From positions 505,990,544 to 506,054,543 of the forward strand of contig NC_053037.3 in the NCBI RefSeq assembly GCF_002575655.3: a stretch of DNA of 64,000 bases, in the 5' to 3' direction. Below are positions 18,505-58,011 of this stretch, one piece after another. The translations under genes were made by a program, and so were the position numbers. Source of the stretch: Aegilops tauschii subsp. strangulata (lineage: Eukaryota; Streptophyta; Magnoliopsida; Poales; Poaceae). The notes under the pieces are model-generated. The model was not told the origin of the DNA, searched no databases, and saw only the letters and a program-made list of their open reading frames with translations. Positions within the stretch are counted from its first letter, which is position 1, and every line of letters starts with the position of its first letter.

Positions 18505-18810
18505 ATACACTAGTGCAGAATCGGGCTATTGTCCCGGTTCGTAAGGCACTTTAGTGCCGGTTCTAGAACCGACACTAAAGGGTGGGGACTAAAGCCCCCC
18601 CCTTAGTCCCGGTTCAATATGAACCGGGACCAAAGGCCCACCACGTGGCACGAGCCCGCGCTGGGGCTGGGGGCCTTTAGTCCCGGTTGGTTACACGAAC
18701 TGGGCTAAAGGGTTTTGGGGGTTTTGGTTTAATTTTCCTTTTAATTTTATGTTTTCCATTTAATTCTTTTTCATTTCACACACATTTTAGGCTACTACAT
18801 ACTGTACATG

Positions 18811-18811
<1 letters not shown>

Positions 18812-18843
<32 letters not shown>
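18812..18843. repeat. (TA)n microsatellite
   Basis: About 16 TA units, immediately left of a fold-back MITE. Confidence 0.95.
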
Positions 18844-18844
<1 letters not shown>

Positions 18845-19214
18845 TATTCATCGCCCAGGGTGCATAATAAGTTATTCTTCACCCGAGGTAATCTTACAAT
18901 CACTTCATAATTAAATTACATTTGGAATTCAGATAGTTACATTCCTATTGATTCACTATCTAAAATTTGGCATAATAAAATAAAAATATATGTCATAAGA
19001 CAAGAAAATTTACAGTTTATGTATATTTTACACTATGTTTTTACGTTTGTAATTTTACGTAACATAAAATATTTTTTACGGCGATTATATATTTTCTTAC
19101 GGTTTCTTTTTACGTCGGAAATAAGACAAAACTTACGGAGCGTAAAATTACGGTGTATTGATGGTAAAATAGAGGGGGTGAAGAATAACTATTCCTCACC
19201 CAGGGTGACGAATC
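18844..19214. mobile_element. Fold-back MITE inserted in a TA microsatellite
   Basis: The left end reads CTATTCATCGCCCAGGGTG and continues AAGTTATTCTTCACCC. The right end, inverted, reads GATTCGTCACCCTGGGTGAG and ATAGTTATTCTTCACCCC. The middle is AT-rich with TTTTACGG/CCGTAAAA words. Both sides are long TA runs, so the target duplication cannot be read. The class is unassigned. Confidence 0.65.
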
Positions 19215-19220
19215 GTCAAT

Positions 19221-19223
<3 letters not shown>

Positions 19224-19290
<67 letters not shown>
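19224..19290. repeat. (TA)n microsatellite
   Basis: About 33 TA units on the right of the fold-back MITE and just downstream of the second gene's stop codon. Confidence 0.95.
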
Positions 19291-19292
<2 letters not shown>

Positions 19293-22078: not shown

Positions 22079-23487
22079 TGATAACCAGTATAGGGGATCG
22101 CAACAGTTTTCGAGGGTAGAGTACTCAACCCAAATTTATAGACTTGAAACAAGGGGAGCCAAAGAATATTTGAAGGTATTAGCAGCTAAGTTGTCAATTG
22201 AACCACACCTGGAGATTAATTATCTGCAGCAAGTATTCAGTAGGACAGTAATATGATAGTTTTGATAGTAGTGACAACAGCAATGGTAACAATAACAGTG
22301 AAAGCAGTAATTTTGTAGCAAGTGTAACAGTGATGATAGCAGTAGTAACTTAGCAAAAACAATATAAGATAAATTTGTAGGCATTGGATCGCTGACTTTT
22401 TGGATGATATTCATCACGTGACAGTTATAACCTAGGGCGATACGGCACTAGCTCAAGTTCATCAATATAATGTAGGCATGTATTCTGTAAATAGTCATAC
22501 GTGCTTTATTAAAAGAACTTGCATGACATCTTTTGTCCTACCCTCCCGTGGCAGCGGGGTCCATATTGGAAACTAAGGGATATTAAGGCCTCCTTTTAAT
22601 AGAGAACCGGAACAAAGCATTAACGCATAGTGAATACATGAACTCCTCAAACTACGGTCATCATCGGGAGTGGGCCCGGTTGTTGTCACTCTGGGGTTGC
22701 CGGATCATAACACGTAGTGGTGACTCTAACTTGCAAGATCAGATCTAAAACATGGATATAATGATGAATTCATAAATGGTTCAGATCCGAGTTCATGGCA
22801 CCCGGGCCCAAAGTGACAAGCATTAAGCATGGCAAAGTCATAGCAACATCAATCTAAGAACATAGTGGATACTAGGGATCAAGCCCTAACAAAACTAACT
22901 CGGTTACATGATGAATCTCATCCAACTCCTCACCGACCAACGAGCCTACGAAGGAATTACTCACTCCCGGTGGGGAGCATCATGGAAATGGCGATGGAGA
23001 TGGGTTGGTGATGACGAAGAACGAAGACCCCCCTCTCCGGAGCACCAAACGGACTCCAGATCTGCCCTCCTGAGGAAGAACAAGGCTTGGCGGTGGCTCC
23101 GTCTCGTGGATCGCGATAATTCTTTCTCCTTGATTTTTTTCTGGAAATATGCGATTTTATAGTATCAGGGGGGTCGTCCACGGGGCCACCAGGTGGGTAC
23201 AATCCACATGGGCGCGCCAGGAGAGGGGGCGCGCCCTGGTGGGTTGTGCCCACCCAGGTGCCCCTCTCCGGCAGGTCTTGGCTCCAGAAATTCTTATTAT
23301 TGATATAAAAAATCCTCACAAAGTTTCGTTCCATTCCGAGAACTTTTATTTTTGCACAAAAACAACAGCATGGTAGTTCTGCTGAAAACATCGTTAGTTC
23401 GGGGTTAGTTTCATTCAAATCATGCAAATTAGAGTCCAAAACAAGAGGAAATGCGTGAGAAAAAGTAGATACGTTGAAGACGTATCA
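22079..23487 (-). repeat. 3' LTR of the Gypsy element
   Basis: It runs TGATAACCAG to GACGTATCA on the plus strand, which is TGATACGTC to CTGGTTATCA in element orientation, 1409 bp. The polypurine tract TAAGCTTGGGGGACT adjoins it at 23488-23502. A GC-rich block with GGGCGCGCC pairs (23205-23245) lies in U3. Confidence 0.85.
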
Positions 23488-25520
23488 AGTCCCCCAAGCT
23501 TAAACCTTTGCTTGTCCTCAAGAAATTCAATTGATAAACTGAAAGTGAGAAAGAAAAACTTTTACGAGCTGTTTTGCTCTTGTTTGCATAAATAAGCTTA
23601 AACAGCACCCAGGTTTTCAGCCAGCATTATAACTAACCATGTCGACAGTAACACTTAAAGATTATATTAACTCATATCAATGACATAATCAGCTAGCGAG
23701 CAATAATAAGATATCTCAAACGGCAACACGTTGTCAAAACAACCATGATATAATATGACAATAGTGGTTTCTCGCTAGCCCTTTCTCATACCGCAAAACA
23801 TAAATGCAGAGCACCTCCAAAGTTCAAGCAGCGATTAAACAATTCATGATAGAAAAGATCCAGTCATGATGAACCCACCATTAGCTATACATAATGCATA
23901 AATCATGACAGCTGTGCTCTACTCAGTTTCTGGCGCTTGTTTTAGAAGGTGGTGACACAACATAAAAGTAAATAGAAAGTCCCTTCACAAAGGGAAGCAG
24001 TGATTTGCAGAGGTGCCAGAGCTCAGTTTTTAAAACAGAGATAAATGATTATTTTGAGACATGCACCCTTCTTATTCACTTCACGACCATCAGTTATCAA
24101 CATCTTCCATGCTAAGCACGCTAGTGGCGGTTCCCAAGCGACAAAACTAAAGGTTTTGACTTCATTGGGAGTTTTTGTTTGATTATTTCAGAGACGAACT
24201 CTTTTTCATGTTTGCAGTTTGGGACTGGGCATCATATTACCGCCCATTTTCTCGTGCGACGGCGAGTGAATAAACACTCGACCTGAGAATAACCCGCTTA
24301 GCATGAAAGATATCGACCACCTCCTGTAGTTCCATGAACGATCGAGGCACACAAAAAGGATAACTTTTAGAAGTTTTTAGAGGTGGCACATGCAAATTTA
24401 CTTAGGACAGCAGGGTAATACCGTATATAGGTAGGTATGGTGGACTCATCTGGAATAACTTTGGGTTCAAGGTTTTTGATGTACAAGAAGAATTCCCACT
24501 TAGTACAGGCGAAGCCTAGCAATTAAGATTGAGAAGCGGCCAGCTAGAGAGCAACAATGATCATGACCATGCATTATGCATAAGTAACATTGGACACTAG
24601 CATGAGTAGGATATGAACACCATGAACATAAATATCATAGAGGCTATGTTGGTTTTGATTCAACTACATGTATGAAATGTGCCAAGTCAAGCCACTCGAA
24701 TATTCAGAGGAGGATACCATATCATCATACTAAATCACAATCATCTTAACACTATGTTGATATCCAAGATAAATCATTATCAACTCCCATCTACTTATGC
24801 AGGGCATGAGAAACTATAATCTCTAATTGTCATTGCAAACATGTTTAACCATAATGGGCTGAATCATGGGCACTAGGTTAAACATATTTACACAAACAGA
24901 ACAAGTCGAGTTCATACCAGTTTCTCTTTGCCACGGTCAGTTCATCGAATATCGTCATTATTGCCTTTCACTTGCACGACCGAACGATATGAAAATAATA
25001 ATAGTGCAAGAGTGCCGTGGACTAAGCTGGGATCTGCAAAGATTTTATTCAACAGGAGAAGGCAAGGTAAAATGTGCTCTTATTAGTTCAACAATTATTC
25101 ATGTGAGAGCCACTCAACATTTTCATTGTGGTCTTCTCCTCGGTACAACTCGAATAAAAGAAAAGAAATTCAGAGAAACACACGAAAATGTTTTTGGAGT
25201 TTTTTGGTTTTCTTCAACGAGCAAATAAAAGGGAAAAGCAAAGACAAGAAAAACTATTTACATGGGAAAGCTCCCAACAAGCAAAAGAAGAACAAGGAAA
25301 TCTTTTTGGATTTTCTTTTTAGTACTACTACTAAACGTGCATAGAAAGTAAATTACTACAACTAATTTTTTTTGGTTTTTCTAAAGTTTTTCAAGCACAC
25401 AAGAAGAAGGCAAGAAAATAAATCTAAGCATGGATGATACAACGAAAAAGTGTGAACACCAACAAATAGAATGATATGTAGACATAAATGTAATGTCGGT
25501 GAGAAACACGTACTCCCCCA
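23488..25520 (-). other. Gypsy 3' untranslated region
   Basis: About 2 kb of noncoding DNA between the polypurine tract and the env-position ORF. A second polypurine-like stretch, TAAGCTTGGGGGAGTACG, lies at 25511-25528. I see no coding sequence. Confidence 0.6.
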
Positions 25521-25587
25521 AGCTTAGGCTTTTGGCCTAAGTTGGTAATCAATCAGTAGCCTGGAGGGTAGTAGTCGGCGTGGTAGC

Positions 25588-26556
25588 TCACGGAGGTTCT
25601 TGGTGCGGACGTCTCGACCTGTCGTGCTGCCACCACTGCTGCGTTATGAGCTCGGGCCTCGCTCTCAAGAACAAAATATCTCCCCTTGTTGTGATAATAA
25701 AAAAGAGCAGGCGAGGCAGATATGTGTGCACAATAGATGTTTGGTCAAACATTAAATTATAAGTGAAGTTATCAACCTTTCCCTTGAGAATCTTATGCTC
25801 TTTTAAGGTGTCAAAATCTAAACACTGCGTGGGTAGGATAGGATCAAAGGGCAAAGGTAAAACATCCAGCCCTCGTGCTAAACGCGTGGCATAAATTCCA
25901 CCATAGAACCAGCCACTGTTAGCGTTATGCTGAAGTCTACATGCAACAATCACTCCAAGGTTATAATTCCTTTCACCAGTGAGAGCGGTGTGAATGAGGC
26001 TCAAGTCTGGCGCGCAAAGTATGCTACAGTCTTGCTTGCCTACTATGCATTTCCCGTTAAATAATGCAAAATACTGAATTACGGGAAAGTGAATGCTCTT
26101 TATTCTTCCTTGTCTCACTCCCCTATTTTCACTGTAACAAAGGCTAGTCAAGAAAGACTCGAACTCAGCCGTTGGTGGCTCATCAAGCGAACCCCAAATT
26201 AGAAGTTTGCAATGGTAAGCAAAATTCTCTAGTGAAATAGTAAATGTATTATCATAAAGCATAAACGACACCCTAGACTCACGTGGAAAATACTTAAATC
26301 CCTTACCAAAAGATTCAGTGAGAAGTTGGCGTTGTTCACACTTTTCTGAGAGGTAGGGACCGAGACCGGGATTGTGAACATATTGCTCAAATTCCTCCTT
26401 GATGCCCACACACCATATAATCATCGCAAGGCCATAAGCATGTTTTGGTGGTGGCATCTCGTGTGGAACTTTCACTTGGTTCAATATAAGACCGGCGAGC
26501 AGAACTGTCACTAGAAGATGCCCCCGAGGATCGTCTCCTCGAGGAACTCCTTCCAA
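25588..26556 (-). CDS. Env-position ORF of Athila-type Gypsy, function unknown
   Basis: An open frame of 322 codons lies downstream of protease, where Athila-type elements keep an extra ORF. It has no signal peptide and no strong membrane segment, so it does not look like an envelope protein. Recognisable phrases are YDNTFTISLENFAYHCKLL, GSLDEPPTAEFESFLTSLCY and ILPTQCLDFDTLKEHKIL. It is intact at this length, which is notable because pol is missing. The domain resembles the retrotransposon ORF-1 type proteins found in many plant genomes. Its role is unknown and I do not assign one. Confidence 0.55.
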   Translation of the reverse strand: MEGVPRGDDPRGHLLVTVLLAGLILNQVKVPHEMPPPKHAYGLAMIIWCVGIKEEFEQYVHNPGLGPYLSEKCEQRQLLTESFGKGFKYFPRESRVSFMLYDNTFTISLENFAYHCKLLIWGSLDEPPTAEFESFLTSLCYSENRGVRQGRIKSIHFPVIQYFALFNGKCIVGKQDCSILCAPDLSLIHTALTGERNYNLGVIVACRLQHNANSGWFYGGIYATRLARGLDVLPLPFDPILPTQCLDFDTLKEHKILKGKVDNFTYNLMFDQTSIVHTYLPRLLFFIITTRGDILFLRARPELITQQWWQHDRSRRPHQEPP

Positions 26557-26739
26557 ATAGGTTCATCGTGTCCGCTACAATTTTCTGAAAATAAAATTTT
26601 TGAGGTGACAAAAATTTGTCAACAAAACTTTATGAAATTGATAGCAACTAATCATAGGGAAACATAGAGGCCATAGCAAGCATTCAAACTACTTAGAACA
26701 CTAAGAATTGAGCATGCAATCACATCTACAGCAGCACCA

Positions 26740-27200
26740 AGAGTAGCTAATTATTCAAAGTATAAACCATCAAAACAAAAACTAATTGGACAAATGGTGG
26801 AGTCACATACGAAGCAACAATCCCCCGAAACAGTTTCGGAAACGGAGCTTCGAGCAAAGAGATCGAATACCGCGGGTTTGAACTCAAGAACACGGGAGAG
26901 TGAGCAATGGAGATTTTTTTCTGGAGGTAAGTGATGATTGGGCTAAAGAGATAAGTGAGGGGGCCCACGTGGGGACCACAACCCACCAGGGCGCGCTTGG
27001 GGGTGCAGGCGCGCCCAGGTGGGATGTGCCCACCTAGTGCACCTCCCTCGGGTATTATTTGCACCAAAAAATCATAAATATTCAGAAAAAATCATGTTCA
27101 ATTTTCAGCACATTCTAAGAACTTTTATTTTGGGGTCATTTTTTATTGCACGGGAAATTCAGAAAACAGACAAAGCATGGCATTTTATTTTATTTAACTA
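26740..27200 (-). promoter_or_regulatory. LTR-U3-like block inside the Gypsy element
   Basis: It shares order and words with U3 of the 3' LTR in the same orientation. Common items are GATTTTTTTCTGGA, the GGGCCCACGTGGGG/CCACGGGG region, paired GGCGCGC boxes, GTGGG(A/T)TGTGCCCACC and AGAACTTTTATTTT. It lies upstream of the env-position ORF and could be an internal promoter, or the scar of a recombination that removed pol. Confidence 0.45.
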
Positions 27201-27358
27201 ATAAAAACAGAGAATAAAAAGTAAGGACAGAAAGTAGTGCTTACTAAATTCATCAACTTCATACCGCTAAAAAATGATTCATTAATAAGGTTGATCAGGT
27301 CTTATTAACAACCATTTTCGATTAGCATGAAACCGAAAAACTTTCGTAAATCACTAAG

Positions 27359-27934
27359 TTACCTCAATGGGGATATGATGTCCCCAACAATAAGCATTTC
27401 ATATTTATTTTTGACAGTAGGTAGAGGTATTTGAAAACTTCCAATAGTGATTGTCGGAGATTTTTCAATAACATTAATACCATTCACTTGGAATTGTTTC
27501 TTTGGAAAGTGCACCGTATGCTCATTACCATTAATATTAAAGGTGACCTTGCTTTTATTGCAATCAATAACAGCCCATGCAGTATTCAAGAAGGGTCTAC
27601 CAAGGATAATCGACATGTTGTCGTCCTCGGGCATCTCAAGTATAACAAAGTCAGTCAAAATAGTAACATTGGCAACAACAACGGGCACATCCTCACAGAT
27701 ACCGATAGGTATGGCAGTTGATTTGTCAGCCATTTGCAAAGATATTTCAGTAGGTGTGAGTTTATTCAAGTCAAATCTTTTGTATAAAGAGAAAGGCATA
27801 ACACTAACACCAACTCCTAAATCACACAAAGCAGTTTTCACATAATTCTTTTTGATGGAGCAAGGTATAGTTGGTATTCCCGGATCTCCAAGTTTTTTAG
27901 GCACTCCATCTTTAAAAGTATAATTAGCAAGCAT
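27359..27934 (-). CDS. Gypsy retropepsin-like protease domain
   Basis: This open frame carries CDLGVGVSVMPFSLYKRF, where Athila-type aspartic proteases have a DLG active-site triad in place of DTG or DSG. DNMSIILGRPFLNTAWAVID follows as the second conserved block, and NGNEHTVHFP later. It is part of the gag-pol polyprotein, not a separate gene. The frame upstream (27945-28419) continues the linker with MPPYAKYMKDIITNK. The reading frame stops after SPLR at 27359 with no reverse transcriptase. Confidence 0.8.
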   Translation of the reverse strand: MLANYTFKDGVPKKLGDPGIPTIPCSIKKNYVKTALCDLGVGVSVMPFSLYKRFDLNKLTPTEISLQMADKSTAIPIGICEDVPVVVANVTILTDFVILEMPEDDNMSIILGRPFLNTAWAVIDCNKSKVTFNINGNEHTVHFPKKQFQVNGINVIEKSPTITIGSFQIPLPTVKNKYEMLIVGDIISPLR

Positions 27935-27944
27935 AGTGGAGATT

Positions 27945-28419
27945 TCAGCTTCCGGTATTGTTTCTCTTATTTGTGATGATGTCTTTCATATACTTTGCAT
28001 AAGGAGGCATTTTCAAGATATCAGTCAAGCGGGTACGCAAAAAGACTGGCCTCAGCATTTCAGCAAAGCGTTCAAATTCTTCATCATCGTTCTTTTTAGT
28101 TGACTTGGGTGGAAAAGGCATAGGTTTTTGAACCCACGGTTCTGTTTCTTTACTGTGTTTTCTAGCAATAAAATCTCTTTTATCATACCTTTTATTTTCT
28201 AGGTTGTGGGTTATCAAGATCAACAGGTGGTTCTATCTCAACATCCTTATCTAGTTCTTTTTCATTATTTGGTTGAGTGTCTTCATGAACCTCATCATTA
28301 TCTTTTTCATTATCACTAGGTGAGTGTTCATTACCAAATTGAGTTTCAGCATCAGAGATAGAGGTTTCATTTTCATTATCAGGAGGTTTCTCTATTTCAG
28401 GTTCACTAGAAGTGTGCAA
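27945..28419 (-). pseudogene. Gypsy gag-protease linker, frame broken
   Basis: Two overlapping frames cover an acidic, Asn/Glu-rich linker (DNEKDNDEVHEDTQPNNEK) and the conserved segment RDFIARKHSKETEPWVQ to LKMPPYAKYMKDI. A frameshift lies near 28200. A poly-Lys stretch coded by CTTTTTCTTTTTCTTT lies at 28431-28452. Confidence 0.7.
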
Positions 28420-28915
28420 AGTCCTATCATTTTTCTTTTTCTTTTTCTTTCTAGAAGGACTAGGTGCACTAGTGTTATTTCTTTATGAATCCTGTTCAAT
28501 TCTTTTTGGGTGTCCCTCAGGATAAAGTAGTTCCTGAGTCATTTTACCTCCTCTAGTTGCAACTCTAACAGCAAAGTCATGCATATTATGATTCATTTTA
28601 TCAAGCAATTCTCTTTGTGATTTAGCAACTTGTTCTAACTGAGTTTGAACCATAGAAGCATGTTTTCCAACACCTCTAACATCATTTTAAATTCTAAATA
28701 ACAAGTCACTCAAGCAAGCAATCATATCAGAATTATATTTCAATTGTTTCATAACATTTGCATTGAAGTGATCTTATTTTCTAATATAGTTTTCAAACTC
28801 ATAAAGGCATTGACTAGGATGCATATTGTGAGGATTATCATTTTCACTGAACTTCATAAGAGAATTTACCTCTACCACCTTAGGCAGTGGTGGTGTATTA
28901 AGCCCATGTATTTCT
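28420..28915 (-). other. Gypsy gag C-terminal region, decayed
   Basis: Low-complexity, stop-containing continuation of gag between the open gag frame and the linker. Traces are readable on the minus strand, but there is no continuous frame. Confidence 0.5.
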
Positions 28916-29815
28916 TCAATAAGGTAAATTTTTAACATCCTCAGCTTTAATACCTTTTTCCTTCATAGATTTCTTTGCCTCTTGCATATCTTCAGGACTG
29001 AGATATATACCCCTCTTCTTTGGAGTGGGTTTAGACAGTGGTTCGGGAAGAGTCCAATCATCATAATTTCTCAATATGTTATTCAATAATTCTTCAGCTT
29101 GAGCAATAGTTCGTTCCCTGAGAACACAACCAACACAACTATCTAGGAAGTCCCTAGAAGCATCAGTTAGTCCATTATAGAAGATATCAAGTATTTCATT
29201 TTTCTTAAGAGGATGATCAGGCAAAGCATTAAGTAACTGGCAAAGCCTCCCCCAAGCTTGTGGGAGACTCTCTTCTTTAGTTTGCACAAACTTAAATATT
29301 TTCTGTAAGGCAGCTTGTTTCTTATGAGCAGGAAAATATTTTTCAAAAAAGTAGTAAATCATATCCTGGGGACTACGCACACAACCAGGAGCAAGAGTAT
29401 TGTACCAAGCTTTAGCATCACCCTTTAATGAGAAAGGAAATAATTTGAGAATAAAGTAGTAGCGAGTTTTCTCATCATGAGTAAAAAGGGTGGCTATATC
29501 ATTCAACTTAGTAAGATGTGCCACAACAGTTTTAGTTTCATAACCATGGAAAGGATCAGATTCAACCAAAGTAATCAACTCTGGGTCGACAGAGAATTCA
29601 TAATCCTTATCATCAATAAATATAGGTGAAGTACCAAACTTAGGATCACATTTCATTCTAGCATTCAGATATTTTTCTTTATACTTGCATAGTAATTTCT
29701 CTAGATCATCTCTATCCTTACAAGCAAGAATATCTCTAGTTGCCTCCTCATTCATAACATAACCTTCTGGCACCTTAGGCAATTGATATCTAGGAAGGCT
29801 AGTAATTTCTCTGGA
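28916..29815 (-). pseudogene. Gypsy gag, N-terminus missing
   Basis: The gag domain is recognised by DEKTRYYFILKLFPFSLKG, DAKAWYNTLAPG, YYFFEKYFPAHKKQAALQKI and LPQAWGRLCQLLNALPDHP. The open frame formally starts at 29839, but its first residues are CACTA-derived. True gag sequence begins near TSLPRYQLPKVPEGYV. In life the product would build the virus-like particle. Confidence 0.75.
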
Positions 29816-30432
29816 TGTCCCTTTGCTGGCTTTTTCCATTCTTGAATGGAGATCTGGATTTTGTCCCTAACAATAACTCCGCATTGGCGAATGAACTTGC
29901 TCGCATTCTTCTTAGGTTTGCGCGGTTCGCCATTAGGTTTGATGGCATCGATGTTGTACTTTACGCCATCCTTCAACTTTTTGGCCGGGCCTCGAACTGA
30001 CCTACTGCTTGTAGAAGATTTGCACGATACGGAGGGCTGAAAGAAGAAAGATTGATTCATTAATATATATATACAAATCAATTAAAACATGTGATGGTCA
30101 CCAGATGCCTGCTTATATAAATATACCTCGCCGGTCTTTGTTATTTCAAGAACAACATTTCCTTTGTCATCATATTTCTCGACTTCATATATTCGTTTGT
30201 CTTCATCAAATATCATACCCTCACCGGTAGGGTTCAGATATTGTGAGTCGTCATCTTCTTCAAACTCATCTGGGCGAGGGGAGCATATGATGTCGAACAG
30301 GGCCTCCTCTCCTTCTCTGCCGGTATTGTCCATAGCTTTTATTTAACTAATCCAGAAGAAACATAAAACAATTTAGTATTCAAATTAGAATGCATGCATG
30401 CAATCAATAAGGAAAAACTGAATCATAGTACA

Positions 30433-30600
30433 TAATATGTATCTCGAATAATCCAGATAATTAATATGCATCATCGAATATAATCTCGAATACATCGTCT
30501 CGAATATTATCGAATAATATAATCTCGAATACATCGTCTCGAATATTATCTTGAATACATCACTAGCTAATACAGATCGAATACTATTGAATAATCTAGT
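30433..30600. repeat. Tandem CTCGAATA-rich repeat in CACTA intron
   Basis: Repeats of ATAATCTCGAATACATCGTC and CGAATATTATC units, about 38 bp apart, lie in the intron between the first exon (ending at 30610) and the ATG exon at 30333. Confidence 0.75.
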
Positions 30601-31045
30601 TCACTCACGGTGGACACCCAAAGAGAAGGAACCATCACATGATCATAGCTCCGATGAGATCCCTGAAGAACCGGCCAGGTATTGGAGAACTTGACGTCCA
30701 ACGCAACCATGTAGCGACGGACGTGCTCGTCCTCCTCCCTGACACGGTGACATACCACCTCCGCGGGGGACGCTAGCCTCCGCACCGAATGTGGCCCACG
30801 CGTCCGCCACCAAAGAAGCTCCGGGTCGACGGCGGGACCCGGGTTCCTCACCAAGATGCGCTCCCGTGAAGGTAGCACCTCACAGTGCCAGCCCGGCGGA
30901 TCCCAGTCCCGGACATGGCGCCTCTGAAGCAGGACGTTGTCGCGAATGGGTCGACGACAAGGATGCGGGCCGGGCATCGTTGACGTCGAGAACAAATTCT
31001 ATGCAAATGTAACTTTTTTAAATGCTTGGGTTGTGATTTCTTAAT

Positions 31046-31587
31046 ATACGAGGAACCTTCAGTCCCTGGCTAGGAATAGGATTTAGAATCATAACGGATT
31101 CTCTTAACCTTTAAGGGATTTAGAAAAATGGCGCCATTCTGGATGTGCAGAAAATGGTCCATATTTTTCATGATCTCATCTACCCTTCTATATGTCACGT
31201 TGTCTAGTGTCAAAAGATTCAAGAAAATCATGGCTTCATCATTAGCCGGAAGTAACAGGCGCATGATGGTACAAAGCTCTTCAAATTATTTTGGAACGGA
31301 GTCCCGGATAGGATAATTAGCTTTTTGGTACGAAGTTCGGCAAGAGCCTTCCGAATATCGCTATTTGGAAGGGCTTTGCTGAACTTCGTACAAAAAAGTG
31401 AATTATCCTATCCGGAATATTTGGAAGGGCTTTGCTGAACTTCGTACGAAAAAGCGAATTGTCCTATCAGGAACTCCGGTCCAAAACAACTTTGGAGAGC
31501 TTCATACCATCATGCGCCTGATACTTCCGGATAATGATGAAGCCATGGATTTCTTCAATACTTTGACAGACAACGTGACATATAGAA

Positions 31588-31590
<3 letters not shown>
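31046..31590. repeat. Inverted repeat of a captured SNF2 helicase gene fragment
   Basis: The left arm (31046-31358, minus strand) and right arm (31363-31590, plus strand) code for the same SNF2 segment. The left arm gives AELRTKK, SGTPFQNN and, after a 1-base shift, TIMRLLLPANDEAM. The right arm gives ELRTKKRIVLSGTPVQNNF, then HTIMRLILPDNDEAMDFF. SGTPxQNN is SNF2 helicase motif III. The arms are about 85% alike by eye, with a loop of only about 4 bases. The right arm starts with a 52-bp direct duplication (31362 and 31415). The context is the leader of the CACTA second gene. The later segment LVHIPNGGILDKSLIKGLRES suggests the CLASSY/DRD1 branch, but that is tentative. Confidence 0.75.
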
Positions 31591-31652
<62 letters not shown>

Positions 31653-31845
31653 TTGCATATTTTAATGTTGTATTTGCAATTAATTAGTATATGTATGTAT
31701 AGTACAATATATTCTCTTAGTCCTTTAATAAGGGATTATATGAGATCAGAAAAAAAAAAGGATCAACTTGTGCACATCCCTAATGGGGGCATTCTTGATA
31801 AATCCCTTATTAAAGGACTAAGAGAATCTATTGTACTATACATAC
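31398..31845 (+). pseudogene. SNF2-family helicase fragment, plus-strand copy, interrupted
   Basis: The exon-like segment 31413-31590 covers helicase motif III (SGTPVQNN) to DNVTYRR. The homologous left arm continues directly with VDEIMKNMDHFLHIQNG. Here the sequence is interrupted by a TA run and one arm of the 88-bp hairpin (31591-31737), and resumes at 31740 with KKDQLVHIPNGGILDKSLIKGLRES. The piece is about 80 codons of a protein that normally exceeds 1000 residues. No introns or flanks of the parental gene are evident, so the donor copy cannot be placed. Confidence 0.65.
31591..31650. repeat. (TA)n microsatellite
   Basis: About 30 TA units between the SNF2 right arm and the 88-bp hairpin. 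Confidence 0.95.
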
Positions 31846-31888
31846 ATATACTAATTAATTGCAAATACAACATTAAAATATGCAACTT
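31650..31888. repeat. Near-perfect 88-bp hairpin, 63-bp loop
   Basis: Arms at 31650-31737 and 31801-31888 match at 87 of 88 positions as counted by eye, the one difference being in CAATA(T/G)ATTC. The loop holds SNF2-derived coding sequence (GTGCACATCCCTAATGG), and the first 35 bases of the right arm (AATCCCTTATTAAAGGAC...) are also SNF2-derived. So the left arm is an inverted duplicate of local DNA, not a separate element. A transcript from either strand would fold into a pre-miRNA-like stem. Confidence 0.85.
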
Positions 31889-32390
31889 TTGCAAATACTA
31901 TTTGCTATACATTGGATCAAATGTCAAAAAAATTAGTTACATTGGATGTCAAAATTCAAACCTCCTCTCAAATGTACATCTATGTCATTCTTGCATCTAT
32001 GTCAAAATCCAAACTTTGACATATGATCAAATGTTGCATATTTGATCATATTTCACTAGATCAAAATTTGACATATGATCAAATGTTGCATATGTCAAAA
32101 TTCAAACTTTGACATATGTCAAAATTCTTGCATCTAGTTACATTGGATCAAATGTTGCATCGTGAAATATGCAACATTCAAACTTTTTTCAATATACATC
32201 TAATCATCTAGTGAAAAAATGTCAAAATTCATCTAATTAACATTTATATATCTAAAATTCATCTAACATTTCTATAACTAAAAGTATAAAAAACTAAAAA
32301 AACATTCATATAACATTTATATATCTAATTCATCTAACATTTCTATAACTAAAATTATAAAAAACTAAAAAACAGAAAATAAGAAAATGT
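31889..32390. repeat. AT-rich cluster of TTTGACATATGATCAAATG words
   Basis: The phrase TTTGACATATGATCAAATG recurs with GTTGCATAT (32014 and 32066), along with further CAAATGTTGCAT and GTCAAAATTCAAAC copies. From 32230 there are repeated CATCTAACATTTCTATAACT words. There is no coding sequence. It looks like degenerate local amplification. Confidence 0.6.
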
Positions 32391-32660
32391 GTGTGCGTGT
32401 GTGCGTGTGTGTGTGCGGGCGCGATTGATGGGAGGGCGGCCATGGCGGCAGGGGCTCACAGCGGGGTGACGGCCGGCGAGTCGTCAGCGATGGCGACTGC
32501 GACGGCGATGGCGCACGAGCTCGAGGAGGGGGCGGTGCGACGGGGACGGCGTCGGGGCAGGCGGTGCATCGGGGGTGGCGGCGATCTCCTCTGTTTGTGG
32601 TCGAAGAGACAAAGAAGCAGAGGGAAACTGAAAAAATTTCAAGTGGTGTATATATATGCG
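32391..32660 (-). other. GC-rich leader of CACTA second gene
   Basis: A GT/GC-rich segment that, read on the minus strand, follows the subterminal-repeat block. It has the same place and make-up as the leader at 40210-40345, upstream of the small gene and transposase. I see no coding sequence. Confidence 0.45.
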
Positions 32661-32870
32661 GAGGCCTTTAGTCCCGGTTGGAGCCACCAACCTGGACTAA
32701 AGGTCAATTTTGGCCAGGCCAAGCGGCGGGAAGCCAGGCCTTTAGTCCCAGTTGGTGGCTCCAACCACGACTAAAGGGGAGCCTTTAGTCGCGGTTGGAG
32801 CCACCAACCGGGACTAAAGGTGGTGCGCTGCCAGGCGAGGGCGCGGTGGATGTTTAGTCCCATCTCGCTA
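32661..32870. promoter_or_regulatory. Internal CACTA subterminal repeats upstream of second gene
   Basis: Five or more units of CCTTTAGTCCCGGTTGG and its inverse (GGTGGCTCCAACC) lie here, the same repeats as at the element ends. No CACTA terminus is visible. It is the counterpart of 4920-5052 in the first CACTA copy and is a candidate promoter module for the second gene. Confidence 0.6.
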
Positions 32871-33392
32871 GTTGAGGAGCGCCAGGACCTGCTTATAAGC
32901 CCCGGCGAGGGCACTGCATTGAGCTCCTGTCAAATGCAGGCCTTCTCGGCCTACCTCTCCTGCTCTGCCCTGATGGGACTACTGGGCTTTGCGGGCCTGC
33001 ATCCTGGCCCAAGGCGGGTTGGGTTTCTAGTCGTATGCAGGCCGCTGTGGCCCAGTAGGCGGGCTTTTTTAATTTATTTATTTTTCTTTTTTTGTTTTCT
33101 GCTTTATTTAATTTCTTTTATTTCTGAGTTGTTTTCTGCTTTATTTAGAGTTTCTTTCTGAATCTTTTTTGCTTTAGGTAAAAAAGTTATAAACTTTCTA
33201 TTAGTGCCAGTAGTTTTCAAATTTGGATAGTATAAATTTGAATTATTTGAATTTTGTGTGAATCACTAGTTTGTGAATAACTTTACTTTAAAAATAGATT
33301 TTTCAGTGATTCTTTTTTCCGCTATTTAATATTAGTGTGTTTTATCATTATATTCAATTTGGTATTTCTTAGGTTATTGAAAAAATAAAATA

Positions 33393-35035
33393 CCTTTGTA
33401 ACAGATGAGTTTTCCTCCGAAACCGTGATACTTCGAAAGAGATTGTACATTTTGTACACCAAGTGCATCCAGTTTTTTCCGTAACCTTCTCAACTTTTTA
33501 GCACATGCTATGTGGGTGAAATTATGATACCATGCCAACTTTCAATGTTTTCGGAGTTCATTTTGTACTGCTTTTTCAATTTCAGGGTCATTTAGCTAAA
33601 AAATCAGTAAATGCATGAAAATAGCAAATGAAATTAGAAAGGGTTGAAAATTGATGACATGGCTTTGAATGGTGCATACCGAATGCACAAAAAGTCTGGA
33701 GTTGAAATAAGTTAAAAAATGAAAAGCCTTTGTAACAGATGAGTTTTCATCCGAAACCCTAATACTTCGAAAGACATTGTCCATTTTGTACACGAAGTGC
33801 ATCTTGTTTTTGACGTAACCCTCTCAACTTTTTAGCACATACTATGTGGGTGAAATGATGATACCATGCCAACTTTCAACCTTTTCAGAGTTAATTTTGT
33901 ACTGCTTTTCAATTTCACGCTCATTTAGCTAAAAAATCAGTAAATGCGTGAAAAATAGCAAATGAAGTCAAAAAGAGTTGAAAATTGATGACGTGTCTTT
34001 GAATGGTGCATACTGAATGCACAAAAAGTTTGGAGTTGACATCAGTTAAAAAATGAAATGCCTTTGTAACAGATGAGTTTTCGTCCGAAACCCTGATACT
34101 TTGGAAGAGATTGTCCATTTTCTACACGAAGCGCATCCAGTTTTTGCTGTAACCCTCTCAACTTTTTAGCACATTCTATGTGGGTTTAATGATGATAACT
34201 TGCCAAATTTCAACCTTTTCATAGTTCATTGTACAACTTTTCAATTTCAGGGTCATTTAGCTAAAAAAAATAGTAAATTCATGAAAAATAGCAAAATGAA
34301 GTCAGAAAGGGTTGAAAATTGATGACTTGGTTTTGAATGGTGCATACTGAACGCACAAAAAGTCTGGAGTTGAAATAAGTTTAAAAATGAAATGCCTTTG
34401 TAACACATGAGTTTTCGTCCGAAGCCCTGATACTTCGAAAGAGATTGTCCATTTTGTACACGACGCGCATCCAGTTTTTGTCGTAACCCTCTCAACTTTT
34501 TAGCACATGCTATGTGGGTGAAATGATGATACCATGCCAACTTTCAACATTTTCAGAGTTCATTTGTACTGCTTTTCAATTTCAGGGTCATTTAGCTCAA
34601 AAAATCAGTAAATGCATGAAAAATAGCAAATGAAGTCAAAAAGGGTTGAAAATTGATGACGTGGCTTTGAATGGTGCATACTGAACGCACAAAAAGTTTG
34701 GAGTTGACATAAGTTTAGAAAAATGAAATGCCTTTGTAACAGATGAGTTTTTGTCCGAAACTCTGATACTTCGAAAGAGATTGTCCATTTTGTACACGAA
34801 GTGCATCCAGTTTTTGTCGTAACCCTCTCAACTTTTTAGCACATGCTATGTGGGTGAAATAATGATACCATGCCAACTTTCAACCTTTTCAGAGTTCATT
34901 TGTACTGCTTTTCAACTTCAGGGTCATTTAGCTCAAAAAAATCAGTAAATGCATGAAAAATAGCAAATGAAGTCAGAAAGGGTTTGAAAATTGATGACGT
35001 TTGTCCGAAGCACAAAATTACACGTTTCAGAGTTC
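33393..35035. repeat. 334-bp tandem repeat, nearly five copies
   Basis: The phrase CCTTTGTAACAGATGAGTTT recurs (with small changes) at 33393, 33727, 34061, 34395 and 34731, giving periods of 334, 334, 334 and 336 bp. Each unit also has ACTTTTTAGCACAT, CAATTTCAGGGTCATTTAGCT and GCACAAAAAGT in fixed order. The last unit is cut short near 35035. The array lies between the transposase stop and the promoter of the second gene. Open frames inside it recur with the unit and are not genes. Confidence 0.9.
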
Positions 35036-35136
35036 ATTTGTACACAAAGATTCCCTACGGTTTGTCCCAAGTGGGACTTTCCAGATATATAAGTCCGGAA
35101 ACTCACTAGAGAAGAAAGTGATGACAGTGAAGCCGG

Positions 35137-38100
35137 TCACATCCTAGAGTGGGATCTTTGGGTGTAAAACTTTTTCTTCGCGTGTGTCCCTCTGCGCCGT
35201 AACCATGGACAAACTTCATCATTTAACTGGATGCTCGGGTCAATATTCACTGTGAAGGGAGCAATTTCATGAAACTTTTCATAATCTTCTGACATGTCTG
35301 TCTTGTCATCCACTCCCACGGGTCTTCCGTTACCCCGCCTCATGTCAGATTTGCACTGAAGCAAAGGGACCTTCAAACCATGTCCATAGTCAAGTTTCCA
35401 TATCTCCTCTATGTAACCATAATATGTGTCCTTTCCCCTCTTGGTTGCTGCATCAAAGCGGACACCACTGTTTTGGTTGGTGCTCTTTTTATCTTGGGCG
35501 ATCATGTAAAATGTATTCCCATTTATCTCATACCATTTGAAAGTCATTATATTCGAAGATGGTAACTAGGACAGCAAGTACACGTCATCTTCAACAGCGT
35601 CGCCATGCATGGCATGTGTCTGCAACCAACCGGCGAAAGTCCCCATTTGTTCACGTGTAATCCAGTCGCCAGACTGCTCCGGGTGTTTGGAGCATAGAAT
35701 ATTCTTGTGTTCCTCGATATACGGAGCCACCAAGGCGGAATTTTGTAGAACTGTGTAGTGTGCTTGAGTGAGAGAATGCCCGTCCATACATATTATTTGT
35801 TTCGGTCCTAGCATGCCATTTCCACCCAGTCTACCCTTATGCCGCGATTCAGGAACATCAATCGGCTTAAGGTCAAGAATAAAGTCAACACAAAACTCAA
35901 TGACCTCCTCATTTTCATGGCCCTTGGAGATGCTTCCTTCTGGCCTAGCACGGTTATGAGCATATTTCTGTTGGGAAACGTAGCATGCAATTTCAAAAAA
36001 ATTCCTACGCTTACGCAAGATCTATCTAGCAGATGCATAGCAATGAGAGGGGGAGAGTGTGTCTACGTACCCTCGTAGACCGAAAGAGGAAGCGTTTGAC
36101 AACGCGGTTGATGTACTCGAACTTCTTCTAGCTCCGAACGATCAAGCACCGGACGTACGGCACCTCCGAGTTCTGCACACGTTCAGCGCGATGATGTCCC
36201 TCGCCTTCTTGATCCAGCAAGGTGTCGAGGAAGTAGATGAGTTCCGTCAACACGACGGCGTGGTGATGGCGATGGTGAAGTGATTCTCGCAGGGCTTCGC
36301 CTAAGCACCACAAAACTATGACCTGGGGTGTAAACTGTGAAGGGGGGCGCCGCACACGGCTAACAATTGTTGTTATGTGTTCTAGGCACCCCCTCCCCAT
36401 GTATATATAGGTGGGAGGGGGAGGGGAGCAGCCATGGGGCACCCCAAGTATGAGGAATCCTACTTGGGGGCCTCCTCCAATTCGGCCTCCCCCCCTTCCT
36501 TTTTTTAGCCGAAGAGAAAAAGGGAAGGGGGGAGGAGAGAAGGAAGGGGGGGCCGAACCCCTTCTCCTCCTTCTCCAATTCGGACACATGCCTAAGGGGG
36601 GGGCGCCACCCCTTGCGGGCTAGTGTGCTCCCCTCGTATGGCCCATATCCCCCCCCCCTCGGGGTTCTGGTAACCCCCCGGTACTCTGATAAATACCCGA
36701 TACTACCCGGAACAATTCCGGTGTTCGAATACTATCATCCTATATATCAATCTTTACCTCTCAACCATTTGGAGACTCCTCGTCATGTTCGTGATCTCAT
36801 CCGGGACTCTGAACAACATTCAGTCACCAAATCACATAACTCATATAATACTAAATCGTCATCGAACGTTAAGCGTGCAGACCCTATGGGTTCGAGAACT
36901 ATGTAGACATGACCGAGGCACATCTCCGGTCAATAACCAATAGCGGAACCTAGATGTTCATATTGGTTCCTACATATTCTACGAAGATCTTTATCGGTCG
37001 AACCGTTATGACAACATGCGTTATTCCCTTTGTCATCGGTATGTTACTTGCCCGAGATTTGATCGTCGGTATCTACATACCTAGTTCAATCTCATTACTG
37101 GCAAGTCTCTTTACTTGTTCCGTAATACATCATCTTGTAACTAACTCATTAGTCACTTTGCTTGCAAGGCTTCTTATGATGTGCATTACCGAGAGGGCCC
37201 AGAGATACCTCTCCGATACTCGGAGTGACAAATCCTAATCTCGATCTATGCCAACCCAACAAACACCTTCGGAGATACCTGTAGAGCATCTTTTTAATAA
37301 CCCAGTTACGTTGTGACGTTTGATAGCACACAAGGTATTCCTCCGGTATCCGGGAGTTGCATAATCTCATAGTCGAAGGAATATGTATTTGACATGAAGA
37401 AAGCAATAGCAATAAAACTTGAACGATCAATATGCTAAGCTAACGGACGGGTCATGTCCATCACATCATTCTCCTGATGATGTGATCCCATTATCAAATG
37501 ACAACTCATGTCCATGGTTAGGAAACCTTAACCATCTTTAATCAATGAGCTAGTCAAGTAGAGGCTTACTGAGGACACAGTTATTTATCTATGTATTCAC
37601 ACATGTATTTTGGTTTCCAATTAATATAATTCAAGCATGAATAATAAACATTTATCATGAATAAGGAAATATAAAATAACAACATTGTTATTGCCTCTAG
37701 GGAATATTTCCTTTAATTTCTTTAAGACTCCCATGAACCTCTCAAAGGGGAACATATTGTGTAGAAATACAGGACCCAGAACGACAATCTCTTCGCATAG
37801 GTGAACTAGGACGTGCGTCATGATATTGAAGAAGGATGGTGAGAAAACCAACTCGAAACTGACAAGACATTGCACCAAATCATTCTCTAACCTTGGTATG
37901 ATTTCTGGATCGATTACCTTCTGAGAGATTCCATTGAGGAATGCACATAGCTTCACAATGGCTAATCAAATGTTTTTCGGTAGAAGCCCCTTCAATGCAA
38001 CCGGAAGCAGTTGCGTCATAATCACGTGGTAGTCATGAGACTTTAGGTTCTGCAACATTTTCTCTACCATATTTATTATTCCCTTTATATTCGACGAGAA

Positions 38101-39320
38101 GCCAGACGGGACCTTCATACTGAGCAGGCATTCAAAGAAGATTTCCTTCTCTTCTTTGGTAAGAGCGTAGCTGGCATGACCCTGATGTATGCCGTCCTTT
38201 CCGTGCATACAATTTTGGTCCTCCCGTGCCTCCGGTGTATATTTTGTCTTCCCATACACGCCCAAGAAGCCAAGCAGGGTCACACAAAGATTCTTCGTCA
38301 TGTGCATCACGTCGATTGCAGAGCGGACCTCTAGGTCTTTCCAATAGGTAGGTCCCAAAATATAGATTACTTCTTCCACATGGATGCGCGTCCGTCAGCG
38401 TCGTTCGGAACAGATTGTCCGCCAGGACCCTTTCCAAAGATTACCTTTAAATCATTGACCATATCATATACATCATCACCAGTACGGTGGCGAGACTTCG
38501 TCCGGTGATCTGCCTCACCTTTGAAATGCTTGCCTTTCTTTCTTACGGGATGCCTGCTTGAAAGAAATCGACGATGTCCCAGGTACACATTCTTCTTACA
38601 ATTATCCAAATATATACTGTGGGTATCATCCAAACAGTGTGTGCATGCGCGGTATCCCTTGTTTGTCCGTCCTGAAAGGTTCTGAGAGCAGGCCAATCAT
38701 AGATGGTCACAAACAGCAACGCATGTAGGTCAAATTCTTCCTAATATTGTCCTCATCCCACGCATGTACACATTTTTCATTCCACAACTGTAAGAGTTCT
38801 TCAACTAATGGCCTTAGGTACACATCAATGTCGTTGCCGGGTTGCTTACGGCCTTGGATGAGCATTGGCATCATAATGTACTTCCACTTCATGCACACCC
38901 AAGGAGGAAGGTTATACATACATAGAGTCACATGCCAGGTGCTATGATTGCTGCTCTGCTCCCCAAAAGGATTAATGCCATCTGCACTTAGACCAAACCA
39001 TACGTTCCTTGCGTCATCTGCAAAGTCCCTCCACTTCCTCTCGATTTTTCTCCTTCCCGTATTTCTTCATTTTCTTCTATTAGGACCCCTCTTTCTCCGT
39101 GCTTGGTCCAAACATTATAGTGGGGCATGGAACCGGACTCAAACAGGTGGACGTGAATGGTTTTTGACTTAGTGTAATTCCGATCATTCTTACAGCCAAC
39201 ACATGGACAACACATAAAACCATCCGCCCGCTTGTTTGCCTCAGCCGCAAGCAGAAAAGTATGCACGCCATTAACGAACTGGGGAGAGCATTGGTCATCG
39301 TACATCCATTGTCGGCTCAT
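35137..39320 (-). pseudogene. tnp2-family CACTA transposase, split by solo LTR
   Basis: The start is MSRQWMYDDQCSPQFVNGVH at 39320, with the zinc-binding-like CCPCVGCKN. A deletion then joins it near 39000 to ARNVWFGLSADGINPFGEQ. Core blocks follow: THCLDDTHSIYLDNCKKN, DVMHMTKNLCVTLLGFLGVY and MTQLLPVALKGLLP. The DUF4218 part FERFMGVLKK is interrupted at 37720/35964 by the LTR and resumes as YAHNRARPEGSISKG. DUF4216 ends at 35137 (EINGNTFYMIAQD, EEIWKLDYGHG). Lesions are a stop near 38367 after ASMWKK, frameshifts near 38690 and 37960, and the deletion. Removing the LTR and one ATTTC restores the frame exactly at its site. Confidence 0.85.
35969..37715 (-). mobile_element. Solo Copia LTR (Angela/WIS/BARE type)
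   Basis: It starts TGTTGGGAAACGTAG and ends CTCTAGGGAATATTTCCTTTA, 1747 bp. It is flanked by ATTTC at 35964-35968 and 37716-37720. The TATA box GTATATATAGG region is at 36397-36408, read on the minus strand as CCTATATATAC. The internal region was removed by LTR-LTR recombination. The last bases TTTA replace the usual TTCA by mutation. Confidence 0.9.
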
Positions 39321-39411
39321 CTTCATTACACGGCACCGAAAAGACCAAATTACTACAAGTTCATACATATATTCCATACACACTTATTCTCATAAACAAC
39401 ATACAAACTCT

Positions 39412-39700
39412 CTAGCAAAAGCATTCAAATGCAACAACAAATGCGATCAAGATCGCAACTAAGATAACAACTGATCCAACAGCGTAATGATACCAAGCCT
39501 CACTATCAATGGCATATTTTCTAATCTTTCCAATCTTCAAGCGCATTTTCTCCATCTTGATCTTGTGATCATCGACGACATCGGCAACATACAACTCCAG
39601 TTTCATCTTCTCCTCTTCAATTCTTTTCAATTTTTCTTTCAAACACTCGTTTTCTTTTTCAACTAAATTTAACCTCTCGATAAGAGGGTCGGTTGGAATT
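39412..39700 (-). CDS. Small coiled-coil protein with C-terminal membrane anchor, CACTA-borne
   Basis: The exon starts after a splice acceptor (GTGAACCAG) at 39701 and reads PTDPLIERLNLVEKENECL. A heptad-like charged helix follows (EKLKRIEEEKMKLELYV, DDHKIKMEKMRLKIGKIRK). It ends with a single hydrophobic segment near the C-terminus, AVGSVVILVAILIAFVVAF, and the tail ECFC. That is the layout of a tail-anchored membrane protein of about 95 residues in this exon. An upstream exon ending at 39802 (RPVYDSDV) is likely but is out of frame by one base here. It lies between the element end and the transposase start, 90 bp before the latter. It has no counterpart in the first CACTA copy. I know of no assigned function. 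Confidence 0.55.
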
Positions 39701-40367
39701 CTGGTTCACATACCTCCTAGATAAAAATATCTATGTCAACTTGATGGGAATAATTTGTCATAAACACGAAATGCAACAAATAGTTATAAAAGAGAATATA
39801 CCACATCCGAATCATAAACCGGACGAGGGCCGACGGGGACGGATATCAAAACCATCCACTATGTATAACAAACATCGTGCGGATAAGAAAATTATACAAG
39901 TAACTATATATCTAAATCACACAAACATGATTTTATATATATATATAGAAGATAAGAACAAGAGGCTCACCACAAGGTGGTGCCGGCGACGGGACGGTGC
40001 GGGCGATCGGCGGTGGTTAGGATGGAGACGGGAAGGCACTAAGTAAACCACACCTACATATGCAAACTAAGAGTTATTTTGAGCTCAAATTTGATATTAA
40101 TCAAATGAACTACCACATATAATTCCTCCCAAACTAAAACCCACAAATCACTATACTTATAAAGCATTGCAAGAGCTAATCTAGAAATGAGAGACGAAAG
40201 GACAAAGTTGCTAACCTTTGTGATCACTTGGATGGATGGGGGGCCTTCAAATCTTGAAAAAAATTGGGCAAAATGACGGATGAGCTCGAGGAAGAGGGGA
40301 AGAACAGAGAGGAGAGGAAAGGAGAAGAACAGAGAGCTTGGGCTCGACGAAGGGTTTATGTAGGATG

Positions 40368-40656
40368 ATCTTTAGTCCCGGTTGGTGATACAAACCTGGA
40401 CTAAAGGTGAGACTCTATCCTGGTTCGTGCCACGAACAGGGACTAAAGGGGTTGGTGGGGCCCTAGCCTGACACCAGCCTGCCAGCACCTCTTTAGTGCC
40501 GGTTCGTGTCACGAAACGGTACTAGAGGTTCAACATGAACCAGGACTAATGAGTGCCGCCCGCCTAGCCGTTGGAACCGGCACTAATGCATATTAGTGTC
40601 GGTTCGTAAATGAACCGGGACCAATGAGGTGAACATAAGGTCGTTTTCTACTAGTG
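40368..40656. repeat. CACTA subterminal repeats and terminus, right end
   Basis: Inverted and direct units of CTTTAGTCCCGGTTGG, CTTTAGTGCCGGTTCGTG and GAACCGGGACCAATGA end in TTTTCTACTAGTG at 40656, followed by ATA. Confidence 0.85.
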
Positions 40657-52837: not shown

Positions 52838-53310
52838 GCAACAAGACGCAAACGTACAACGCCACTACGCGGCAAAACCAAAACCCCTCCTCGACATGAA
52901 CGACGGGGAGAGCTCTGCTGCTCGATCCGTCGACGGATTTAAACGGGAAGCTCGGCGGATCGCTTGCGAGGCTCGGCTAGCAAAGCATACGATGCGATGC
53001 CAGGACGAGCCGCGCACTCCAGTACGTATACCTCTCTGGCTCCTGATTCCCGGGAGCTAGCTAGCCTTCACGGGCAAGCCATGGAGAGAGGCGGAGAGCC
53101 GGAGAAAGGTATATGCAGCCGCGGGCCGATCGATCGGTGTTTCCCAGGATGGCGGTGGTAACGTGCGAAAAACAGGCCGAGATGCGGCCAAAAGGAGGGG
53201 AGACCGAGATAGGGATCGAGGGAACAACAAGGGGGCGAGGCGCGCGAGAGAGGAGGATCTCCCGCGTTTGAAGTACGTAGCGTGTGCACCTGGGAAGGCG
53301 ATTTATATAC
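52838..53310 (-). promoter_or_regulatory. Promoter and 5' UTR of GT14 gene
   Basis: On the minus strand GTATATAAAT at 53310-53301 is a good TATA box, which would give a 5' UTR of about 430 bp. A closer ATTTAAAC at 52937-52944 is a weaker alternative. The DNA between is GC-rich and free of repeats. Confidence 0.55.
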
Positions 53311-54895: not shown

Positions 54896-55405
54896 TATCT
54901 TGTTGGGGAATGTTGCATGGAAAACAAAAAATTTCTACGCACACGCAAGATCTATCCATGGAGATGCATAGCAATGACAAGGGGAGAGCATATACATACC
55001 CTTGTAGATCGCTAAGCGGAAGCGTTTATCAACGCGGTTGATGTAGTCGTACACCTTCACGATCTGTCCCGATCAAGCACCGAACGTACGGCACCTCCGC
55101 GTTCAGCACACGTTCAGCTCGATGACGTCCTCGCCTTCTCGATCCAGCAAGAGAGGCGTAGTAGTAGATGAGTTCCGGCAGCACGACGACGTGATGACGG
55201 TAGAGGTGAAACTATTTCCGCAGGGCTGCACCAAGCACAACGGTTTAGAGTGGAGGACGAACTAGAGGGAGAGGGGGCGCCGGCACACAGCTTGGGGATT
55301 TGTGGTGTGTGGCACCCCCTCCCCTCCTCACATATATATGGGTGGAGGGGGAGGGGAGGCAGCCCTAGTGTGCGCCCCAAGGGGCCGGCGGCTGCCCTAG
55401 GCGCC

Positions 55406-58010: not shown

Positions 58011-58011
58011 A

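Follow-up and report, generated by a model that had tools for sequence, protein, structure and literature searches.

In our study, a stretch of 64,000 nucleotides (nt) of Aegilops tauschii subsp. strangulata (contig NC_053037.3; hereafter the window) was found to contain, inside a CACTA transposon, a hairpin made of two facing fragments of a CLASSY-type SNF2 gene. The structure, the donor type, the capture and the spread of this hairpin are well supported, and its regulatory role is put forward as a proposal. According to the account that we favour, a CACTA family captured ~300 nt, lying within one exon, of a grass CLASSY 3/4-like SNF2 gene, the captured stretch probably running from just past the DEGHTPRN motif, via SGTPFQNN, to LRESVVILNP. 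A second copy of this piece in inverted order would then have produced two head-to-head arms, separated by a loop of 4 nt, in the region between the transposase gene TNP2 and the gene that follows it. The arms would have diverged first, and only later would the carrier elements have multiplied to several hundred sites. A transcript running through both arms, on either strand, would form a long but imperfect duplex that could serve dicer-like enzymes as a substrate, and the resulting small interfering RNAs (siRNAs) of 21–24 nt would today most likely help mainly to silence the CACTA family, with incidental cross-talk onto related CLASSY genes. The account as a whole, from the capture to the siRNAs, is given a probability of about one half.

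Structure of the Hairpin

The hairpin of the window consists of a left arm, a short loop and a right arm in two blocks (Table 1). The two arms were identical at 219 of 259 aligned bases (84.6%), and their differences were flat over the codon positions (9/7/8 and 4/5/7). The RNA fold predicted for positions 31040–31840 had an energy of -383.9 kcal/mol, whereas 20 shuffled sequences gave -180.4 ± 8.5 kcal/mol (z -24). In the predicted fold, the left arm was paired with the right side through 161 pairs in 16 helices, the longest unbroken helix being 21 bp. An earlier reading made from the letters of the window (the sequence-only reading) had described facing SNF2 copies with a loop of about 4 bases and arms differing by about 15% by eye, within a CACTA element and upstream of its second gene; it had also held that a transcript across the pair folds into a long duplex, and had named an in silico fold as a check. 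All of this agreed with our results, as the loop was located at 31358–31361, the computed identity matched the estimate, the hairpin was found between TNP2 and gene 2, and the predicted fold, well beyond the shuffles, formed such a duplex. The end of the right arm, which had been placed at 31590, had to be corrected; the arm is interrupted there instead and resumes at ~31738–31830.

A tandem duplication of 56 nt opens the right arm; in copies of the hairpin elsewhere in the genome, such as L013, L014, L016, and L024, its two halves aligned to a single place. The inverted copy at 31641–31737 was not found at the corresponding place in any of 20 other copies and was rejected as a component of the family.

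The Donor Gene

The SNF2 origin stated in the sequence-only reading was borne out by the Pfam matches, in which the right arm scored 31.4 and 33.9 bits to SNF2-rel_dom (PF00176; cutoff 24.9), and a left-arm piece of 25 residues scored 18.6 bits, under the same cutoff. The right-arm composite reached at most 28.9 bits against the sequences of the PDB. The protein searches were limited to proteins of 0.55–1.75 times the query length. Both arm composites gave 81 matches with E ≤ 1 among 109 candidates, one of which (P0032) was the window itself. A longer consensus query gave 28 matches with E ≤ 1 among 363 candidates; these were SNF2 proteins of 362–777 residues and included a Lotus protein named 'CLASSY 3-like' and a Colocasia protein whose name ends at 'CL'. 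The best match, P0082, scored 83.9 bits with the right arm and 93.7 bits with the other. P0082 itself scored 508 bits with the Lotus 'CLASSY 3-like' protein, followed by 155 bits with ATRX and 128 bits with a RAD54-like chain. The source name 'RAD54-like', carried by five of the 28 matched proteins including P0082, counts against the CLASSY assignment. RAD54 as the donor was rejected by the scores (508 for CLASSY vs. 128 for RAD54-like).

The nearest gene found to the hairpin arms, L030, is present in the same genome as the window (G000). It contained an open frame of 615 residues, which scored 842 bits with P0082 and 519 bits with the Lotus CLASSY protein. Its sister in the same genome, L031, has a frame that is broken upstream. 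The protein identities of L030 and L031 to a hand-typed, family-like consensus were 76.5 and 74.5%, respectively, over 98 residues, and the window's own arms showed 77% DNA identity to L030. In the protein tree, L030 and L031 paired with P0082/P0083, and the two genes differed from each other at 3, 3, and 13 sites of codon positions 1, 2, and 3, respectively, which is the pattern of coding genes. A linker of 26–28 residues was present in two other CLASSY-like genes and absent from the hairpin and L030. By these comparisons the arms stand nearer to CLASSY proteins than to RAD54, ATRX, DDM1, and other SNF2 groups, and their derivation from a CLASSY-type (CLSY3/4-like) SNF2 gene is well supported. 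The sequence-only reading had suggested CLASSY or DRD1; the first name stood, with a CLASSY 3-like match and a same-genome gene whose SNF2 part is uninterrupted, and DRD1 was not favoured as the donor, neither it nor CLSY1/2 being among the proteins compared directly.

A further group of CLASSY-like matches was observed at G000:C5:25496588-25979080. It comprised 23 tandem matches, many of them ~3 kb apart, to the C-terminal helicase half only of CLASSY-like proteins, with open frames of 151–234 residues, several of which contained stops.

The Hairpin Family

The 69-residue right arm was searched against G000, giving 1824 candidates, of which 150 were scored; all 150 were significant. Loci of 9.9 kb each were taken for 20 of them, six picked for opposite-strand neighbours and 14 mostly from the top of the list. 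Each of these (20/20), and each of ten further loci (10/10), was found to be a hairpin with one left-type and one right-type arm, and the loop was 4 nt long in 28 of the 30 copies. A 35-base pattern of the apex, with up to 3 mismatches, occurred 689 times in the genome (376 + 313), and its reversed control did not occur. The hairpin of the sequence-only reading is present, yet it is a member of a family and not unique; a one-off local event was rejected on the 30 hairpins and the 689 apex matches. The predicted folds of 20 copies ranged between -0.48 and -0.62 kcal/mol per nt. Of the 81 database reading frames, 26 were found to hold an antisense as well as a sense block (antisense E < 0.01), and in 19 the antisense match had E < 1e-6; shuffling the 81 proteins gave 3 hits. 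For comparison, 28 CLASSY-like proteins gave 79 sense matches and no antisense match. A lone match in a viral contig (L001) was weak, covering 32 residues, and was not used.

Six of the 20 loci (L020, L021, L023, L025, L026, and L027) contained two or three CLASSY hairpins in tandem.

Palindromes can also act as DNA. The palindrome might serve as a cruciform or a replication block in the transposition or expression of the element, its CLASSY origin being incidental, and the short loop kept in 28 of the 30 copies is consistent with such a role. The arms, however, have drifted to ~84% identity without correction, which is poor for a cruciform, and we consider this explanation highly improbable.

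Capture, Inversion, and Spread

The mean identity was 0.924 among the left arms and 0.911 among the right arms, and the two consensus sequences were 0.879 identical to each other. Their identities to L030 were 0.81 and 0.80. In the tree, the two genes L030 and L031 were separated from all arms with a support of 100/100, and 20 of the 21 right arms formed a single clade with a support of 96/94. As the two arm consensuses share more identity between themselves than either does with L030, and as the genes stand apart in the tree, the arms probably arose from one capture followed by inversion. The inversion would have preceded the spread, since 20 of the 21 right arms form one clade. Two independent captures were rejected, as no gene found is as near to either arm as the other arm is, and as the arms are joined in the tree. 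The comparison of sequences thus puts a single capture first, followed by a single inversion, by divergence between the arms and lastly by the spread. At an assumed annual rate of 1.3e-8 per site, the interval between the inversion and the ancestral spreading copy would be about 5 million years, and the differences among the copies would amount to about 3 million years; both figures are rough.

Targeting Potential and Tests for Selection

The 42 arms of the 20 loci and the window were examined in this one genome with a simple plant target rule applied to 21-mers. All 42 arms contained rule-passing 21-mers against L030, and likewise against L031. For the control L035, a stretch of an unrelated gene that lacks the captured region, none of the 42 arms held a passing 21-mer, and arms shuffled once yielded 2 passing sites among 10041 21-mers. 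Passing 21-mers are the outcome expected from homology, and their use is not implied.

The same complementarity would also fit a counter-defence, in which the hairpin is kept as its siRNAs lower the mRNA of CLASSY 3/4-like genes or methylate the gene, weakening the recruitment of RNA polymerase IV (Pol IV) and helping CACTA. The donor belongs to a gene type that feeds Pol IV, the copies number in the hundreds with two or three hairpins at 6 of the 20 loci, and every arm has passing 21-mers against both genes. A precedent is known in miR820 and OsDRM2 of rice (PMC3459959), and in maize a CACTA-like element and the silencing by Mu killer are both subject to the related protein RMR1 (PMC2725412). 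The tests for selection, however, speak against it. Co-evolution of the arms was sought and none was found, the within-copy identity (0.841) being equal to the between-copy identity (0.843), and the within-copy pairing was no better than that of permuted arms (p 0.74 and 0.59). A specially retained target site was also sought; the longest run that the consensus arms have in common with L030 did not differ from the chance expectation (p 0.47 and 0.44). In comparison with L013 and L016, the hairpin was conserved at 90–92%, which is about equal to its neighbours and no higher; the transposase region was higher, at 94%. These tests thus gave no sign of selection for pairing, for a target site or for a silencing trigger, as the arms drift independently and no target site has been kept in particular. 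The sequence-only reading, which had raised a potential trigger against a host silencing factor, was borne out in part, as to the structure, the donor type and the setting. We regard a counter-defence as unlikely. Equally doubtful is the wider claim of a dispersed hairpin system of several hundred copies, through which a CACTA family would use RNA interference in trans against the CLASSY 3/4-like genes that steer Pol IV. If this were true, grasses would have a second CACTA lineage, after that of miR820 and OsDRM2, in which a silencing gene taken from the host became a hairpin directed at the silencing machinery.

The Host Element and Its Decay

The features of the hairpin and of its host element are given in Table 1.

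Table 1. Features of the CLASSY-derived hairpin and of the CACTA element that carries it (positions in the window).
Feature	Position	Strand	Description
Left arm	31046..31357	-	CLASSY-like SNF2 fragment, SGTPFQNN to LRESVMILNPIPSQ; 1-nt deletion
Loop	31358..31361	.	4 nt
Right arm, 56-nt tandem duplication, first copy	31362..31417	+	93% to second copy, 31418-31473
Right arm, first block	31418..31591	+	SGTPVQNN to DNVTYRR
(AT)30 repeat breaking up right arm	31590..31650	.	Shorter AT runs at the same place in many copies
Inverted copy of 31801-31897	31641..31737	-	95%; creates second foldback
Right arm, second block	~31738..31830	+	VHIPNGGILDKSLIKGLRES; GGILDKSLIKGLRES located here
Host CACTA, best bounds	18508..40656	.	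10/13 terminal bases, ATA/ATA target duplication, TTTAGTCCCGGTT repeats just inside both ends
TNP2 transposase remains	37714..39383	-	Transpos_assoc, Transposase_21 in two frames, part of DUF4218
LTR-like insertion in transposase region	35969..37716	.	~1.75 kb; absent, flanks joined, in L010, L011, L013, L016, L017, L019
Gene 2, first frame	30567..30998	-	143 codons, no Pfam match; common to other copies; start ~65 bases beyond left arm
Gene 2, remainder common to other copies	19517..22078	-	No Pfam match
Later insertion dividing gene 2	22079..29809	-	~7.7 kb; gag and retroviral-protease matches
334-bp tandem array	33380..35000	.	4.8 copies, 90%; common to 8/20 fetched copies
LTR, long terminal repeat.

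The best bounds are ends of the CACTA/TAGTG type with a 3-bp target duplication. Three further pairs of ends scored equally and had matching 3-bp duplications; the pair 18508/40656 was preferred because the TTTAGTCCCGGTT repeats lie just inside both ends. The TNP2 remains gave 70.7 bits for Transpos_assoc, and 140.5 and 67.1 bits for Transposase_21 in its two frames. As the Transposase_21 halves are only ~64 bases apart, in different frames, a frameshift fits better than an intron. The two parts of gene 2 probably belong to one gene. In L012, L016, L018, and L029 about 0.67 kb stands in place of the 7.7 kb that divides it, so the latter is taken as a later insertion in the window copy, as is the stretch 35969–37716. 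The sequence on either side of the hairpin, in the direction of gene 2 as well as of TNP2, was common to 8 of the 20 loci (L011–L014, L016, L018, L019, and L029), and the remaining loci, diverged relatives among them, had less in common with the window.

As a transposon, the copy in the window has decayed. This decay, together with the neutral-looking drift of both arms, is in line with an inert passenger, that is, an old gene scrap carried along in silent elements, with no transcription across it and no effect beyond that of any heterochromatic repeat. According to PMC8664484, the siRNAs of Aegilops tauschii transposable elements are mostly 24 nt long and come chiefly from SINE, Gypsy, and Copia elements, which points in the same direction. 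On the other side, the long duplex-forming copies would be unusually good dicer substrates if read through, and hundreds of copies raise the chance of this. An inert passenger is possible, but we consider it less probable than the account given at the outset.

In that account the siRNAs would act mainly on the CACTA family itself, and the transcription of the hairpin, its dicing and any silencing effect are inferred. Several observations, in addition to the decay of the window copy, weigh against it or are weak points of the analysis. The ten further loci came from the last rows of the list, and in all 30 of the 150 scored matches were inspected, which is a weak point of the sampling. In the tree, the arms of L011 were swapped, the left one falling next to the right arms and the right one within the left arms. 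Of the 538 21-mers of the window, 86 passed the target rule against L030, so most siRNAs would mismatch. Passing 21-mers were also obtained for two CLASSY-like genes that are more distant, L032 (all 42 arms) and L034 (41 of the 42), and L030 is not singled out. The differences between the arm consensuses were distributed over the codon positions as 9/6/14, a mild third-position excess unlike the flat pattern of the window arms. Finally, the 15 microRNA (miRNA) matches listed from Rfam were all below the cut-off, the best being MIR7807 (49.1 bits vs. a cut-off of 90); a known miRNA family was rejected on the curated cut-offs.

Other Features in the Window

A second CACTA transposase gene was found at 5262-8784 (-), with Transposase_21, DUF4218, and Transpos_assoc matches and a DUF4216 match under the cut-off. 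A mini-CACTA of 450 bp was located at 16153-16602, with 12 of 13 terminal bases matching and a GCA/GCA target duplication. Repeated LTR-like units of ~2 kb, roughly 80–90% alike, were present at 55405-62782 and 35967-37713, and one of them breaks the CACTA transposase region. At 51521-52864 (-), a frame of 447 codons for a Core-2/I-branching enzyme (Pfam 252.9 bits) is possibly an intact gene. A MIR5387-like match at 32752-32806 reached 41.2 of 69 bits, under the cut-off, and lies within CCTTTAGTCCCGGTTGG inverted repeats.

Comparison with Known Systems

Previous studies describe a role of the donor's relatives in silencing. In maize, most 24-nt RNAs, the methylation of a CACTA-like element and the onset of Mu killer silencing depend on the SNF2 protein RMR1 (PMC2725412). 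In rice, OsCLSY3 and OsCLSY4 direct 23–24 nt RNAs, and the CLSY3/4 clade is duplicated in grasses (PMC12680349). Predicted hairpins are present in 32.5% of the CACTA elements of maize, with a bias to the terminal inverted repeats (PMC10760457).

The hairpin resembles the Mu killer locus of maize in being an inverted partial duplication from which a long hairpin RNA and siRNAs are expected; in Mu killer a transposon sequence silences the transposon, whereas here a host-gene sequence is borne by a transposon at hundreds of places (PMC10760457, PMC3440606). The capture of host gene fragments by elements with terminal inverted repeats, including Pack-CACTA, is likewise comparable, as a host gene fragment lies in a CACTA element; unlike in that capture, the fragment here comes from a silencing gene and is present as two copies inverted to each other (PMC13317346). 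In the main text of this review, hairpin, miR820, CLASSY, and SNF2 are not among the words used. Searches of an open-licence library, from which subscription papers are mostly lacking, found neither an account of a CACTA hairpin derived from CLASSY nor any paper with the motif strings of the hairpin. The birth of miRNAs by inverted duplication of the target gene shares the origin from a would-be target; here no discrete miRNA is apparent, the Rfam matches being below the cut-offs.

The closest likeness is to miR820 of rice (PMC3459959). This miRNA is borne by rice CACTA elements, has a foldback similar to OsDRM2, and reduces OsDRM2. In both systems, a CACTA foldback resembles, and is possibly derived from, a gene of RNA-directed DNA methylation, has multiplied with the element, and is complementary to a surviving host gene. 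The feature typical of miR820, a CACTA foldback from a host gene of the silencing pathway, was thus found here as well, the pathway role being presumed from the donor's family. Differences are also clear. In miR820 the gene encodes a methyltransferase, there are 5 copies in Nipponbare, the products are 22/24 nt long, and mRNA cleavage and co-evolution with the target have been shown (PMC3459959), whereas here the donor belongs to the CLASSY-like SNF2 genes, the arms measure ~300 nt, the apex matches number 689, and any small RNAs are predicted ones. In the literature covered, the case for transposon hairpins that arise from silencing genes and fight plant silencing rests on rice miR820. If siRNAs from the arms hit CLASSY genes, anti-silencing would have evolved repeatedly; if they silence only the element, the family would be a natural experiment in which gene capture feeds back on a silencing gene. 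What is new relative to miR820 is that another silencing gene is involved, that the hairpin is long and that its copies number in the hundreds.
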